A stretch of DNA of 41,413 nt from Methanocalculus chunghsingensis (GCF_018132105.1 NZ_JWHL01000012.1:1-41413); one strand, 5' to 3'; counted from the first letter of the stretch, positions 2 to 8,645 are shown. Program-made: numbers and translations. The notes: generated from the letters alone by a model not told the origin.

Positions 2-700
2 AAAAACCAGTTTTATCTCCTTATCGTGGTAGACGTACCTGAAGAACCACAGATTGAACCTGAGGAGATCATCGGAGTCGATCTCGGTATCGCCAATATC
101 GCAACAACATCGAAAGGTGAAACCTTCTCCGGGCAGAAATGTACTGAATCCAGAAAGAGATACACCCGTATTAAAGCGGATCTTCAATCCGTTGGTACAT
201 GGGACGCAAAAAAACATCTCAAAAAACTCAGTGGAAAAGAACGCCGATTCAAGAATGATACAAACCACTGTATCAGCAAACTAATTGTCGCTGAAGCCAA
301 AGGCACACAATCCGGTATCGCGTTGGAAGATCTGACAGGTATCCGTGATCGGACACCCGGTTATAAGGCATTAGCAGCGGCAATCGGTAAATGGGCGTTT
401 TATGAGATAGCAATGTACATACGATATAAAGCACATATGGCTGGTATCCCGGTCTACCTCGTTGATCCCCAATATACATCCCAACAATGTTCTCATTGTG
501 GATATACGAGCAGGGAAAACCGGAAAACCCAGTCTGACTTCATCTGTATCAAATGTGGATATACGGATAATGCGGATATCAATGCCGCAAAAAACATTGC
601 ATCAAGGGCTGATGTCAACCAGCCTATCGCACTCCGTCCTGAACCTAAACGGTCAGGAAGATGGAAGGGCAAGCCCACGACTTCAGTCGTGGGTAGTTGA
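2..700 (+). CDS. tnpB: TnpB RNA-guided nuclease of IS605 type (5' end outside window)
   Basis: This is the C-terminal part of TnpB, the RuvC-like nuclease of IS200/IS605 elements, which uses an RNA made from the element's right end to cut DNA. The reading frame is open to the first bases of the window, so the GTG at 26 is not the true start; roughly 230 codons are seen. All three RuvC acidic positions are present: Asp in GVDLGIAN, Glu in ALEDLTG and Asp in NADINAAKN. The four-cysteine zinc finger (CSHC and CIKC) lies between the last two. The stop TGA falls just after the right-end hairpin, so gene end and element end coincide, as is usual when the guide RNA overlaps the 3' end of tnpB. The visible part looks intact, with no frameshift. 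Confidence 0.9.
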   Translation, partial: KNQFYLLIVVDVPEEPQIEPEEIIGVDLGIANIATTSKGETFSGQKCTESRKRYTRIKADLQSVGTWDAKKHLKKLSGKERRFKNDTNHCISKLIVAEAKGTQSGIALEDLTGIRDRTPGYKALAAAIGKWAFYEIAMYIRYKAHMAGIPVYLVDPQYTSQQCSHCGYTSRENRKTQSDFICIKCGYTDNADINAAKNIASRADVNQPIALRPEPKRSGRWKGKPTTSVVGS

Positions 701-953
701 CAAATGGCTCCATGAATGCAGATGCCATCCGGTCAAGGTACTTCTTCTTGACAAGCGTGATGCAACAGACATCTCCCTCCTTCTCTGAGAGCATGACCAT
801 CAGCCGCTCACCCGGAGTGAAGCCTGCACGGTCCCGAACCTCTTTTGGAAGGACGATCTGGCCACGTGCGTCGATGGTGACGATCCCCTCAACAGAACAG
901 GAGCAGGGTCTCTCGTTATCCGTGCAGGATGAGCACGCTTCTTCCATCTTCAT
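645..953 (-). CDS. AbrB/SpoVT-type regulator with Cys-rich N-terminus, 3' end altered by IS
   Basis: This is a small protein (102 codons as it now reads) with a SpoVT/AbrB swapped-hairpin DNA-binding domain, seen as VTIDARGQIVLPKEVRDRAG at about residues 25-44. The Cys-rich start (CSSC, then CSC) and the later VCCITLVK match the family usually annotated as HgcAB-associated protein; that link is from family memory, and no hgcA or hgcB is in the window. The natural protein probably ended shortly after MEPFV. The last 18 or so codons (from NYPRLKSW) are read out of the IS right-end hairpin and tnpB, giving a foreign tail up to a TAG at 645-647. Upstream there is a TATATC-like box near 979-984 and an AT-rich direct repeat at 1000-1020 that could be its operator. 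It may still be functional, because the DNA-binding core is complete. Confidence 0.75.
   Translation of the reverse strand: MKMEEACSSCTDNERPCSCSVEGIVTIDARGQIVLPKEVRDRAGFTPGERLMVMLSEKEGDVCCITLVKKKYLDRMASAFMEPFVNYPRLKSWACPSIFLTV
674..693. repeat. Right-end hairpin of the IS605-type element
   Basis: An 8-bp perfect stem, CCCACGAC paired with GTCGTGGG, closes a TTCA loop. It is preceded by AAG and followed by TAGTTGA. In this IS group such an imperfectly conserved hairpin is the substrate recognised by TnpA and forms the end of the TnpB guide RNA scaffold. The same AAGCCC...GGGTAGTT frame is seen again at 11250-11280. Confidence 0.75.
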
Positions 954-3914: not shown

Positions 3915-4493
3915 TCAGAGTGCCGGGATCTTCCCGACATAGAAATATGCGATCCGGGCGGCATCTGCTGCCTGTACCCTGCCATCATAGGAGAAATCTC
4001 CACGAAGCTCTTCTTCAACAAGCCCAACTGACATGTACGCTACCCGTGAAACATCCCCGATATCCACCCTGCCGTTGCCATTCAGATCCCCTTTCAGCGC
4101 TGTCTGGGTGATGGATATCCGGAGACTCTCCCCACTCCCGAAACGGGCCGTTTCGTCAGCGGGATACCCGTGGATGAAGAAGGCAATCTCCGCTCCGGGC
4201 TGAATCTCTCTCTCTTCTCCATATGCCGATTGCTGGATAATGAGTCTTTCATCAAAGGGTCCGGAACCACCGATCATCCCTGGCTCCCTGACGATGATCC
4301 GGGCAACCTCGTTCCCAGCGACGAATGCAGTGACGATTGCACCGGGGGGTGCGGGTTCGCCGTTGATGGTGACGGTGCCGGAGATCTCGCAGGGGAGGGT
4401 GGGAATGGACGATAGCGCCGCTGCGGGTAGCACCGCAATCATGGCGAGTGCGATTATCAGGATAGATGCGATAATGATTCGATTTCTCATCAA
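3915..4493 (-). CDS. Secreted protein with dockerin-like calcium-binding repeats
   Basis: A 192-residue exported protein. The N-terminus is a signal peptide (basic start, then a hydrophobic run to PAAALS, cleavage near residue 27). Residues about 35-130 form a beta-rich module beginning CEISGTVTINGEPAPPG, similar to the metal-/sugar-binding modules in methanogen surface proteins. The C-terminal 58 residues hold two dockerin-type repeats: GDLNGNGRVDIGDVSRVAYM, and GDFSYDGRVQAADAARIAYF. The Asp/Asn ladder of the first repeat is a full calcium loop; the second is slightly degenerate. Dockerins pair with cohesins in bacterial cellulosomes; in archaea they are found on surface proteins with mostly unknown partners. 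No cohesin is visible here. It lies downstream of the TasA/signal peptidase locus on the same strand but is separated by a terminator and 340 bp. Confidence 0.8.
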   Translation of the reverse strand: MMRNRIIIASILIIALAMIAVLPAAALSSIPTLPCEISGTVTINGEPAPPGAIVTAFVAGNEVARIIVREPGMIGGSGPFDERLIIQQSAYGEEREIQPGAEIAFFIHGYPADETARFGSGESLRISITQTALKGDLNGNGRVDIGDVSRVAYMSVGLVEEELRGDFSYDGRVQAADAARIAYFYVGKIPAL

Positions 4494-4813
4494 TAGTTTC
4501 TCCGTTTCTTCAATTCATTAAAAGATACATTTCCTTTCCATTCATGGTGAAGGAAGGCGTTTCACAATTATAGCCGATAAAGGATATCCGCCTGAGTGAT
4601 ATCAGGCAGTGAGAGCATCGTCCTTCAATATTCCGGCTTTTTACTGGTGCACCGCTTCCTTCAGGTATCCCTTTATTATTTTTATGTATAATGAATTGAT
4701 GATGTAACTGACGATTAATCTATCGTTATGTTGTGAGACAATTATACCAAGGGCCATTCTGATGTATTTTCTGGGGTGAGGGGCAGAAGAGGGAAAACTC
4801 GCAAGATGAATAA
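4494..4813. other. Gene-free spacer, 320 bp
   Basis: No gene is visible. The part next to 4493 (AATTCATTAAAAGATACAT and similar) is AT-rich and probably carries the promoter of the dockerin-like gene. The rest has stop codons in all frames and no strong structure until the hairpin at 4814-4827. Confidence 0.5.
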
Positions 4814-4827
4814 GGGGGAATACCCCC
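4814..4827 (-). terminator. Hairpin terminator after the DUF5305 gene
   Basis: A perfect GGGGG-TATT-CCCCC hairpin read on the minus strand starts four bases after the DUF5305 stop codon and is followed by TTATT. It is well placed to end the TasA/signal peptidase transcript or protect its 3' end. Confidence 0.6.
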
Positions 4828-4831
4828 GGTA

Positions 4832-5866
4832 TCAGTTTTCCGAATACCGATACATCAGCTCATTGACAACGAAGAAGTAGATCCCGCTATTCTCATCATA
4901 GATGACACGCTGGTTCATATCGACCGCCGCAGCAACGAGATCTTCAAGTGATGCAAACTCGATCATGTCGGTATTCCTCAGCCCCGTATAGCGGCCGCTG
5001 CTGATCCAGTCTTTATACTCGATCCGGATATCCTCCCGTTTCAGCGCCTCCGGATCAATGCCCCCCTGCCTGCGAACCGAGATTGTGGTGATAAGAACGA
5101 AGATAAGGATTGCCACCAGAATCAGAAAGCCTGCTGTAAGTAAATATTTCTCGATGACAGGCGGTTCCTTCCGGACGAGCCGCATCCTGGGCGTCGTCAC
5201 GGTCTCACTCTGAACAGTATCTCCTGCAACTGAGTAGTAGCCGCTTCCCAGCTCAACCGGCAGGGAATATGTACTTATTCCCGTGATCTCCTCTCCATTC
5301 AGGGTGCCGGTATAGATGACTGTCGTCACAATCTCAGCAGAGGGGGTGCCCTGTCGTAAATTCAGGACACCGGAGATGGCTGAGATTTCGTCACCCAGAT
5401 CCTTGATATTCAATGAGATCGTCTTTTCAAAGGAATCAGAGTTCAGTTGTGCTGTATCTTCGGAGATGATCAGATCCTTCTTCCAGAAGGGTGATCCGCC
5501 GCCAGCGGTCATGGCAAGGGTGGCTTTGGTCACTGTCGATATTCGTAGATTCACATCACGGGCCAGAGCTTCAAACCTGAATGTGGATGTGAGTACAGGA
5601 GATGCCGCATAGAAGTATGTCTTCTGATCTGAGAGGGTTGTTCCAACCGGCCAGAGGGGATTTTCCATCATGACGATGGCGCTATTGCTGTACGATCCAT
5701 TCAGCGTATAGAGGGGTTCTTCATATCTGATCTCCTGGTACTGTACGACGAACATCGTATTATAGACGCCAATTCCCGATATTACGATAGCCGGTACCAA
5801 TATCAGCATAATGACGGCGCTATACGCAGAGATGTAATACCTGATCTTATTACGTGTTAAAGCCAT
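4832..5866 (-). CDS. DUF5305 family membrane protein
   Basis: A 344-residue membrane protein matching archaeal DUF5305, a family found beside archaeal signal peptidases. One membrane segment is at about residues 15-40, followed by a beta-rich extracellular region of about 200 residues and a second membrane segment near 242-265 (LLTAGFLILVAILIFVLITT). The rest, about 80 residues, would be cytoplasmic and ends FFVVNELMYRYSEN. Function is not established; the context suggests a partner of the signal peptidase or of the exported TasA-like protein. Its start overlaps the end of the upstream signal peptidase gene by 17 bp, so translation is probably coupled. It is the last gene before the hairpin at 4814-4827. 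Confidence 0.75.
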   Translation of the reverse strand: MALTRNKIRYYISAYSAVIMLILVPAIVISGIGVYNTMFVVQYQEIRYEEPLYTLNGSYSNSAIVMMENPLWPVGTTLSDQKTYFYAASPVLTSTFRFEALARDVNLRISTVTKATLAMTAGGGSPFWKKDLIISEDTAQLNSDSFEKTISLNIKDLGDEISAISGVLNLRQGTPSAEIVTTVIYTGTLNGEEITGISTYSLPVELGSGYYSVAGDTVQSETVTTPRMRLVRKEPPVIEKYLLTAGFLILVAILIFVLITTISVRRQGGIDPEALKREDIRIEYKDWISSGRYTGLRNTDMIEFASLEDLVAAAVDMNQRVIYDENSGIYFFVVNELMYRYSEN

Positions 5867-6830
5867 GGTTTTTCGGTCTCCGTTTCTTCTTTGAGGAGGG
5901 GTACTTCTCCCGCAGCCAGATGGGGTGAAGGAGAATGATGATGATCATGCCTGGGACTACAGCGATGAATAATGAAGGGAGATAGGGGTGGAGATCTGCG
6001 AGCATCAGGAACCAGAAGACCGGAAGGATATAGGGGGCCCGGATGATCCGGAGTGGTTCGGATGAACCTGATGCTATGCCCACTACCTCTTCGCCGGGTC
6101 CAATAATCCCGTATTCCGGCTCTGCTGAAGATGAAGGCAACAGATAGACCTCCGGTATCAGGTTCTGCCCCTTTATTGTCACCATACCCTCTGCGGGTGT
6201 ATACTCTCCAGCCATTCCGGCGAGCGAAGGGAGGGCGATGATCCAGAATGGTGCCAGGACGAGGAGGCCAAGAAGCAGCAGACGTTGTCCATTGATCGTA
6301 TACAGGGAACGCCTCCTGTTCTTCTTCTCTCTCTCCTGACGCATGAGCTGCCGGGGATCGGTATTGACGGTCCGCAGTTCTGAGAGAAGAAGGGCGATTG
6401 CAGGCAGGATCACAAAGAAGAGGGTCACTTCACGGCGTGCTTCATTCGTGTACCCGATCAGGGGAATGAGGAAGACCGCTTTTCCGACAACATCATCATA
6501 TGAGAAGGGATTGGCATCGATAGCATTATTCGCATCACCCTTTGTGACGAACTCCCGGTTTTCCGGATCTATTTCAAGAACCCGGTGGGTGACGACGACC
6601 CGCTCCTGTGCTGAAGGAATCTGAAATGAGATGATATCGCCGGGTTCGATCAGCTCAGGATCCAGGGGTGCAACAAGTATGACATCCCCCGTGAGCATCA
6701 CCGGCTCCATACTCCCCGAGAGGACGATCATCGGTTTGATCTCCATCATGACTCCGGCAACAAGAGCACTGCCAACGATGATGGCGATGATGATAACGAT
6801 GACCTGTTGTACCCGCTCTTTCCTGTTCAT
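5850..6830 (-). CDS. Signal peptidase I, archaeal/SipW type, with extra C-terminal membrane segments
   Basis: A 326-residue membrane-bound serine protease of peptidase family S26B. The N-terminal membrane anchor is followed by the nucleophile motif SGSMEP (Ser at about residue 40), then VVTHRV (His at about 82, which replaces the bacterial Lys as general base), then KGDANNAID (Asp at about 99 and 105). This Ser/His/Asp set is that of archaeal and eukaryotic signal peptidases and of Bacillus SipW. After the catalytic domain, which ends at about residue 130, come at least three more hydrophobic segments (near 135-152, 185-205 and 275-305). Length is therefore about twice the usual archaeal enzyme. 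It probably trims the TasA-like protein encoded two genes upstream. The start is 147 bp downstream of the smaller signal peptidase; an AT-rich TATA-like stretch at about 6944-6956 could give it its own promoter. Confidence 0.85.
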   Translation of the reverse strand: MNRKERVQQVIVIIIAIIVGSALVAGVMMEIKPMIVLSGSMEPVMLTGDVILVAPLDPELIEPGDIISFQIPSAQERVVVTHRVLEIDPENREFVTKGDANNAIDANPFSYDDVVGKAVFLIPLIGYTNEARREVTLFFVILPAIALLLSELRTVNTDPRQLMRQEREKKNRRRSLYTINGQRLLLLGLLVLAPFWIIALPSLAGMAGEYTPAEGMVTIKGQNLIPEVYLLPSSSAEPEYGIIGPGEEVVGIASGSSEPLRIIRAPYILPVFWFLMLADLHPYLPSLFIAVVPGMIIIILLHPIWLREKYPSSKKKRRPKNHGFNT

Positions 6831-6943
6831 TCTTCAATCCCGCCTTCTCAAGTGTCGTACATGATGAACCCGATCTCTTCGTCTCTTGGTTGAACCGCAT
6901 TCTCAATGACAAAGGATCGAATGAAAAGTGATACGAACTGAAG

Positions 6944-6956
6944 AATTATATAATTT
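6944..6956 (-). promoter_or_regulatory. Possible TATA box for the large signal peptidase
   Basis: The minus-strand reading AAAATTATATAATTC lies about 115 bp before the start at 6830 in a region much richer in A and T than its surroundings. It would give a leader of about 90 bases. This is a sequence-pattern call only. Confidence 0.35.
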
Positions 6957-6977
6957 TTGTTTTTATATTTATTGTGC

Positions 6978-7451
6978 TCACCTTCGCATCCTCTGGATCT
7001 CAAGGGCGATAAGCAGAAGGCCGGGTATCAGGACGAGTGCCAGGTACCCGGCAAGGGAGGTAACGATATGCATCGCTGCCCCCGCATAAGGGATGATCAG
7101 GACGACTCTGCCTGCAATCTGGTCCGGCCTGATATGATACGGGTCGGTGGCTGCAAGATTGTCGCCCCTGGTCCGGATCGTTCCGTCATCCTCGATCGAG
7201 ACGATCCTGTGTGCTATAGGCACACTCACCCCTTCCTGCGGTCTGAACGCGATGATGTCACCAACAGCGGGTTCTCCGGCAGCCAGGGGAGCGATCACCA
7301 CGAGATCGTTTTGTGTGATGGTCGGCTCCATACTGGTGCCGATGACCCCTGCCATGTTCAACGGGGTGCAGAAGAGGAGAGCGATAACAGCAGCAGTTGC
7401 TATGAAGGCTGCGTATTCGCTTTTTCTCATCTGCATCCCATTAAGTGTCAT
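6978..7451 (-). CDS. Signal peptidase I, archaeal/SipW type, short form
   Basis: A 157-residue second signal peptidase of the same S26B type. A membrane anchor at about residues 13-30 is followed by GTSMEPTI (Ser at about 40), PIAHRI (His at about 81), RGDNLAATD (Asp at about 97 and 103) and a C-terminal membrane segment (LAGYLALVLIPGLLLIALE). All catalytic positions are kept. The gene starts 15 bp after the TasA-like stop, so the two are surely cotranscribed. The ATG at 7451 lacks a ribosome site; in-frame ATG codons at 7436 and 7430, just after GGG, are alternatives that shorten the protein by 5 to 7 residues. The SipW role, cutting the special signal of TasA-like proteins, fits best and is an inference from context. 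Confidence 0.85.
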   Translation of the reverse strand: MTLNGMQMRKSEYAAFIATAAVIALLFCTPLNMAGVIGTSMEPTITQNDLVVIAPLAAGEPAVGDIIAFRPQEGVSVPIAHRIVSIEDDGTIRTRGDNLAATDPYHIRPDQIAGRVVLIIPYAGAAMHIVTSLAGYLALVLIPGLLLIALEIQRMRR

Positions 7452-7466
7452 CCAGATATGAGATGT

Positions 7467-8087
7467 CTACATGCCCCAGTTCGGATTATCTGTCTGCATG
7501 GCGTTAAAGATCATACTAAGTGTTCTTGATTTGCCAGCATACTGATTACCTGCATCATTGTCCAACGTGACATCAACCTTGAAGTACTGGTAAAAACCAC
7601 TTTCCATGGGGTGATTATTTTCGGTTGCATTCAGCAAAGTCGTCCCGGCATCACTGATATCTGCCCATCTGAAAGTCTGTACTTTTCCCTCTTCACCCCA
7701 ACCAGTTATAGCTCCATCTGGAAGCGAGAATCCGGATATTTCTGAACCATCACCTTTATAGGTGGTTGTTGTAAATGTCATTTGACCGAGATTCAGATCT
7801 CCTGCAGTCGGAAGTAGATGTGCTTTAAAGAATAGGTCAACACTTCCATTATTCCAGATGAAAACATACCCCATTGTCTCAGGCACTCCGGGACGAAGTG
7901 TGTCCGATGTTTTTAATGGCCCAGCAGTGCCGTTTGTATCAAAAGTTAAAACGCCTAAATCGACATTCCCTGTCGTAATGACATTGTTAGGAACGGTCTC
8001 TGTGTCGCTAAACCATGCGAATGTCCCGAGCCCGACGCCGCCGAGGGCGATGCCGATGATCAGAATACTCATAAGATATCCTTTCAT
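7467..8087 (-). CDS. TasA/camelysin-like secreted protein with SipW-type signal peptide
   Basis: A 206-residue exported protein. The N-terminus has a hydrophobic run then GLGTFAWFSDTET followed by NNVITTGNVDLGV, the hallmark of the SipW-cognate signal peptide class seen in TasA, camelysin and related archaeal proteins. By analogy with TasA, cleavage would fall after Ala 24 (TFA/WF). The mature part is beta-rich, Gly/Thr/Asn-rich and almost free of Cys, as in TasA. TasA-family proteins assemble as extracellular fibres, and the archaeal bundling pilin of Pyrobaculum is a relative; a fibre role here is inferred. It is the first gene of the locus, with GGAGAG 10 bp before the ATG and a long AT-rich upstream leader. 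Confidence 0.85.
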   Translation of the reverse strand: MKGYLMSILIIGIALGGVGLGTFAWFSDTETVPNNVITTGNVDLGVLTFDTNGTAGPLKTSDTLRPGVPETMGYVFIWNNGSVDLFFKAHLLPTAGDLNLGQMTFTTTTYKGDGSEISGFSLPDGAITGWGEEGKVQTFRWADISDAGTTLLNATENNHPMESGFYQYFKVDVTLDNDAGNQYAGKSRTLSMIFNAMQTDNPNWGM

Positions 8088-8285
8088 TTTTTCAACTCTC
8101 CGTAATTCATTTCATGCAAGGCCTGCGGGGAACGGGTGTTTCGTTGAGGACGTGGTATCCGGTGTTCTGGCATGAATGACCAGAACGATACAGTGTACTC
8201 ATGAGTGGCTCATGTGCAGTGTGCTGATGCAAACCCTACAATCACCAATAATAAATATAAGTATTTAAATATATTTATATGGTTT
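8088..8285 (-). promoter_or_regulatory. Promoter and structured leader of the TasA-like locus
   Basis: TATA-like sequence lies at about 8244-8282 on the minus strand, placing transcription start near 8220 and leaving a leader of about 130 bases. The leader contains a perfect hairpin, GTTCTGG at 8164-8170 paired with CCAGAAC at 8180-8186 around a 9-base loop, and the 10-bp palindrome ACTCATGAGT at 8197-8206. A regulator site or an RNA switch is possible; I recognise no known riboswitch class. Confidence 0.4.
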
Positions 8286-8532
8286 ATTTTAACCATCGGA
8301 GGCTTATTCGTCAATTGGATAATTAAGAATCCTTAAATAGTGCATACAAAAATTAATTATTATAGATTTCATATTTATAATATATATTAAATAAACCTTG
8401 GAAAAAGGGGAGATGAGACACGTTTTCACGATTACTGTGTCACTCAAAGAGGGCAATGTTTATATACAGTCTTTTGCAGAAAAAACAATTCATATGCCTC
8501 AAATATTTTTATAAAAACATTATTATAAAAGT
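8286..8532. other. AT-rich spacer
   Basis: This is an unusually AT-rich stretch with many TATA-like motifs (for example TTTATATAC at 8458-8466 and TTTTTATAAAAA near 8504-8516) and no gene. A 79-codon frame starting at 8456 has no ribosome site and odd composition and is not called. Confidence 0.5.
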
Positions 8533-8645
8533 ATGCCGCGAAGGTGCGGCAGGGGGTCTATTTTTCATGACTATTCTCCCGGCTTCCCCACATCAACATC
8601 GGCGGTGGCGAGTGAGGGCCACAACCATCCGATTCTCACTTCACA
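8533..8645. ncRNA. Candidate structured RNA (GC-rich island in AT-rich DNA)
   Basis: A GC-rich island of about 110 bp with several possible stems: TGCCGC/GCGGCA at 8534-8539 and 8546-8551 around GAAGGT; GTGGC/GCCAC at 8605-8609 and 8618-8622; and, as an alternative, GAGTGAG/CTCACTT at 8610-8616 and 8635-8641. A strong TATA-like box lies just to its left. Read on the minus strand, the TGCCGC hairpin is followed by a T-rich tract, like a terminator, so either strand could be transcribed. I do not recognise the family. Confidence 0.25.

Follow-up and report, generated by a model that had tools for sequence, protein, structure and literature searches.

A cluster of four genes in Methanocalculus chunghsingensis encodes a TasA/camelysin-like secreted protein (TasL), a short and a long S26B signal peptidase (SipS and SipL) and a DUF5305 membrane protein, and its strictly conserved unit is the pair SipL plus DUF5305. 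The presence of this pair in many archaea of the phylum suggests an export or assembly system that has yet to be studied. For the cluster itself we favour, with moderate confidence, the reading that it makes a TasA/AbpA-type extracellular protein together with its own processing enzymes, and that this protein is joined into a fibre by donor-strand exchange, with SipL and DUF5305 as the membrane part.

Organisation of the cluster

The four genes lie on the minus strand of the window (the whole 41,413-nucleotide stretch of this Methanomicrobiales genome that was analysed), in open frames running from position 8087 down to 4832 in the order TasL, SipS, SipL and DUF5305. Gene set and order are those of the initial annotation, and each product matched its family models: TasL (7467-8087, 206 amino acids, predicted cut after Ala24) was recognised by TIGR04088, PF12389, a family profile and fold prediction; SipS (6978-7451, 157 amino acids with translation from the first ATG; the ATG at 7430 is a possible alternative start) and SipL (5850-6830, 326 amino acids) by TIGR02228; and the DUF5305 protein (4832-5866, 344 amino acids) by PF17231. 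TasL and SipS are separated by 15 bp and SipS and SipL by 147 bp, and the last two genes overlap by 17 bp. A terminator had also been placed after DUF5305. A possible hairpin (GGGGGTATTCCCCC, minus strand, 4812-4827) does lie directly 3' of this gene, but as a terminator it is a pattern match only, of a kind that also arises by chance (9 found against 3.5 expected).

The upstream neighbours are a tRNA-Leu gene (8871-8787) and an acyl-CoA ligase-like gene (named by inspection). Between TasL and the tRNA-Leu gene, a long stretch rich in A+T (8090-8560) is a likely promoter region; a sigma-70 promoter scan was set aside as unsuited to archaea. Downstream, a library scan identified a secreted dockerin-type protein and a cupin gene. 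The former (3915-4493, minus strand; PF00404, E 5.1e-5) follows the cluster immediately and is not at the same place in the sister species G012. At the start of the window, an IS605-type TnpB-like fragment with a Cas12f1-like TNB domain (26-700, plus strand) enters from the edge and is overlapped on the opposite strand by a MazE/AbrB-type DNA-binding ORF (645-953, minus strand).

TasL and the TasA family

Wang et al. are said to have put archaeal TasA homologues in print in 2022. TasL matched the model of the SipW-cognate signal peptide (TIGR04088; E 3e-10, 39.9 bits, cut-off 19), as did all 19 members of its family, and on its own it also matched the camelysin model PF12389 (28.8 bits, cut-off 22.5), over residues 6-46 only, so that this match could reflect the signal peptide alone. 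The mature domain was covered by the profile of the 19-member family, which retrieved from the PDB the mature Bacillus TasA chains 5of1 and 8aur (E 1.8e-6 and 3.1e-6 respectively, positions 32/33-198); PF12389 was matched by 18 of the 19 members and the NCBI TasA model (NF046066) by 11. The family profile was needed for this result: a single-sequence PDB search with TasL gave no match, and the TasL of the window did not match NF046066 at E 0.01. AbpA was not among the PDB matches of the family profile. Invariant residues in the family alignment include Asn181, in a C-terminal N.Y.G motif, and Pro66, which occupies the same alignment position as the conserved proline of the “proline box” at the interface between TasA protomers (PMC10151520). 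The relation to TasA claimed at the outset is borne out by these profile matches, on which TasL is judged to be a TasA/camelysin relative across the mature domain, beyond the signal peptide.

In the AlphaFold model of TasL the N-terminus is disordered and the core is all-beta, with block pLDDT values of 71-89 for residues 41-110 and 131-200. A comparison of the predicted fold with TasA and AbpA had been suggested in the initial annotation, and a Foldseek search of 350,542 PDB chains placed Pyrobaculum AbpA first (7ueg; E 4.8e-4, probability 0.99, with low TM-scores of 0.32-0.36), the cannula protein CanA second and TasA (5of2) at rank 33 (E 0.047), the TM-scores of the fold comparison being 0.31-0.36 in all. 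An unrelated fold is not indicated; since the TM-scores are low, this evidence backs the sequence evidence and would not stand alone. Around the predicted cut, between GTFA and WF, both P2 and P2' are aromatic, as in TasA, a pattern that is poorly handled by bacterial LepB and is cut by SipW, an ER-type peptidase (PMC10269814).

TapA or another SipW-cognate accessory subunit is absent: the whole genome has one TIGR04088 protein, and the family here called A7 is missing from it. A7 is a third family of SipW-cognate proteins, encoded between SipS and SipL in Methanoculleus and Methanosarcina (L109:8369-8965, L105:7281-7877, L115:6149-7183), and is a candidate TapA-like accessory subunit. Two similar SipW-cognate proteins (MAYFSSIQTSGP) were also seen in genus g13 at a contig end (L102:31-2194), where a downstream peptidase may be cut off; a related copy at locus L103 is followed by a short peptidase.

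The two signal peptidases

Both peptidases exceeded the cut-off of the archaeal signal peptidase I model (TIGR02228, 51.85 bits), with 74.3 bits for SipS and 105 bits for SipL. The Ser/His/Asp residues reported earlier as intact were found in place on inspection, as S40/H81/D97/D103 in SipS and S40/H82/D99/D105 in SipL, the latter set being invariant in 14 SipLs across the phylum. The SipL profile matched human SEC11A/C in the PDB (E 1e-22 to 1e-24), and the two peptidases did not reach the Bacillus SipW equivalog NF046067 (58.1 and 86.9 bits, cut-off 190). In SipL, a catalytic domain (about residues 1-155) is followed by more hydrophobic segments enclosing an extra domain; by hydropathy, the hydrophobic segments of the protein lie near 10-28, 134-152, 184-202 and 283-301.

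Two dedicated peptidases had been proposed as a feature of the system, and this proposal did not hold in other genera. In Methanoculleus and its kin, what occupies the SipS position is a remnant that lacks a normal peptidase frame (the alignment comprises seven loci, and translated SipS similarity was seen in three), and SipL is the sole intact peptidase of these clusters. The SipS pseudogene (L109:7960-8370, and the same place in L105-L108, L110 and L111) lies between TasL and the third SipW-cognate gene. Genus g5 has TasL and one short peptidase, with neither SipL nor DUF5305. A requirement for both peptidases is rejected in view of the decay of SipS in Methanoculleus and the absence of SipL from g5; each peptidase type can accompany TasL alone. 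Bacillus SipW reportedly has a second, regulatory role beyond cleavage (PMC13082335), so that further functions of such peptidases would not be without precedent.

The SipL-DUF5305 pair across the phylum

The DUF5305 protein matched the full PF17231 model (1-217; E 4.5e-38, 131.3 bits, cut-off 29). It consists of a hydrophobic helix (16-34), a beta-sandwich, a second hydrophobic helix (242-260) and a conserved small C-terminal domain (AlphaFold pLDDT 78.7). No function was read from its fold search, which gave partial matches only (TM about 0.2).

Full-length SipL was found in five of the 120 genomes of the order (G000, G072, G092, G096 and G104), and full-length DUF5305 in exactly these five, an association that exceeds chance; all five have a SipW-cognate protein. 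In the phylum sample, DUF5305 was present in 116 of 391 genomes (110 above the Pfam cut-off). Fifty-nine DUF5305 loci were considered up to 8 kb on either side (L130 excluded, SipL counted if it had at least 270 amino acids), and 56 of them contained SipL (45 within 500 bp, 40 upstream on the same strand). With three S26 genes in a genome of 2.13 Mb, as here, chance alone would place one in about 2% of 16-kb stretches.

A search for the gene set elsewhere, proposed in the initial annotation, found it again in family f9 and in the genera Methanoculleus and Methanosarcina; probable haloarchaea have part of it. Methanosarcina spelaei (L115) has the order TasL, TasL2, SipS, the third SipW-cognate protein, SipL and DUF5305, and f9 has close versions of the Methanosarcina order (L076, L153, L154); TasL, SipS, SipL and DUF5305 follow one another in that order in both. 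Family f9 is probably Archaeoglobus-like, and families f13, f17, f20, f22 and f26 are probably haloarchaea. What had been described as a methanogen version is a phylum-wide module, mostly lost in this genus.

Among the 59 loci, TasL was near the pair in nine and DUF1102-like genes in 40, never both, with neither in 10, and DUF7344 genes were near it in 35; the DUF1102 and DUF7344 counts are approximate, as they come from small purpose-built models with a Pfam check on a few proteins only. The probable haloarchaea have the SipL-DUF5305 pair without TasL, mostly beside DUF1102-like proteins. At L079:6956-12177, L080:6968-12649 and L155:7950-12783, the pair is accompanied by DUF1102 proteins (PF06510) in tandem and by a DUF7344 gene, which looks like a parallel system with a different subunit family; one of the genomes concerned, G250, has a separate TasL-type set as well (L076). 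One profile comparison of DUF1102 with the TasA family (probability 88%, the signal peptide contributing) hints at a possible distant relationship between the two. Searches of the PDB with profiles of the DUF5305 and DUF1102 sequences found no solved relative. Neither family was mentioned in the literature searched, which lay mostly outside subscription journals, and an earlier notice of the pair is possible.

The variety of these neighbours (TasL, DUF1102 or neither) means that SipL-DUF5305 is not tied to one substrate family, as would be expected of a general export or quality-control pair handling several kinds of secreted beta-proteins and not specific to fibres. We regard this explanation as possible, if somewhat doubtful: most genomes of the order lack the pair and carry a separate S26 peptidase, so that it is not a housekeeping function, and the other substrate family may itself be remotely related to TasA. 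A general export role would in any case be compatible with fibre formation by TasL.

Proposed mechanism and comparison with known systems

In the favoured reading, TasL as the subunit of a fibre, the protein would be exported by Sec, and one of the cluster's S26B peptidases would then cleave it after Ala24. This would leave a mature beta-sandwich whose hydrophobic N-terminus (WFSDTETVPNNVIT), now free, would most likely complete the next subunit by donor-strand exchange; we infer export, cleavage and joining from TasA and AbpA (PMC9674648). The product would be a thin adhesive or matrix fibre. DUF5305 and SipL, to judge from their anatomy, would probably act jointly at the membrane to release, hold or chaperone, or nucleate subunits, in a role similar to the one that TapA has in Bacillus, and SipS would be an optional second peptidase.

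TasL might alternatively be a camelysin-type protein of the surface or associated with the S-layer that does not polymerise and that the peptidases merely process. Its three N-glycosylation sequons (N52, N80 and N153) are compatible with a plain surface protein, and camelysin is the Pfam name of a family in which fibres are proven for few members only; we nevertheless consider this unlikely, since both relatives that have been characterised, TasA and AbpA, assemble into donor-strand fibres (PMC9674648), and TasL conserves the N-terminal segment and the proline position that those fibres use. The fibre reading of TasL can also be widened, tentatively and with rather low probability, to SipL-DUF5305 as a Halobacteriota membrane machine that would couple signal-peptide removal to donor-strand filament assembly, with TasA-like subunits in methanogens and f9 and DUF1102 in haloarchaea.

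The tapA-sipW-tasA operon of Bacillus subtilis shares with the cluster a SipW-cognate subunit adjoining an ER-type (S26B) peptidase, homology in the mature domain and the cleavage pattern, whereas the methanogen cluster lacks TapA, has the long peptidase and DUF5305, and places the subunit gene first. Camelysin-family subunits and SipW without TapA are also found in the CalY/TasA-SipW system of Bacillus cereus (PMC10151520), which has two camelysins, compared with one SipW-cognate protein in this genome and two or more in Methanosarcina and f9; archaeal TasA homologues have already been published (PMC10151520). AbpA, from the bundling pili of Pyrobaculum calidifontis, is an archaeal TasA relative and provides the best PDB fold for the predicted TasL, but its TM-score is low and there is no sequence-profile match; the comparison covers the subunit. 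Sulfolobus acidocaldarius threads (Saci_0406) are likewise an archaeal donor-strand fibre with a subunit cut by signal peptidase I (PMC9715654), but the subunit family is another one and no dedicated peptidase or DUF5305 is described for them. The Mth60 fimbriae of Methanothermobacter, methanogen fimbriae thought not to be type IV pili (PMC10370314), are encoded by different genes (mth58-mth61).

Evolutionary history of the cluster

In the tree, the DUF5305 proteins of the window and of Methanoculleus are sisters (support 100/99), which fits vertical descent within the order. Within the genus, the cluster is present in one of eight genomes, this one. Sister species G012 has lost all of it save the last 103 codons of DUF5305 (92% DNA identity over 322 bp), which lie between the same flanking genes on both sides and adjoin an acetyltransferase-like ORF (named by inspection); because of this deletion scar, the patchy spread is, at least in part, due to loss. 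No cluster remnant was found in the cupin gene neighbourhood in three further species of the genus. Recent transfer is not supported, as the tree and the G012 scar speak otherwise. The scar itself (L020:7159-7527, G012:C2) has 86% amino acid and 92% DNA identity, against 82-86% in the flanks, and is an intact 122-amino-acid frame that includes a membrane helix as well as the conserved small domain; this fragment might still be in use. The restriction of the cluster to one genome of the genus, the fragment in G012 and the G+C content of TasL (45% against 52% for the window) might suggest a remnant, in decay or of recent acquisition, that now serves little purpose. This is highly improbable, given four open frames with intact active-site residues and a DUF5305 placed in the tree as under vertical descent.

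Significance

How archaeal thin surface fibres other than type IV pili are assembled is largely an open question; for the Sulfolobus threads, assembly is stated to be possibly spontaneous or catalysed (PMC9715654). The strictly linked SipL-DUF5305 pair, which adjoins TasA-like subunits in methanogens that can be cultivated and DUF1102 proteins in probable haloarchaea, is a defined and testable gene set, and together with its neighbours it yields a first functional hypothesis for DUF5305 and DUF1102.
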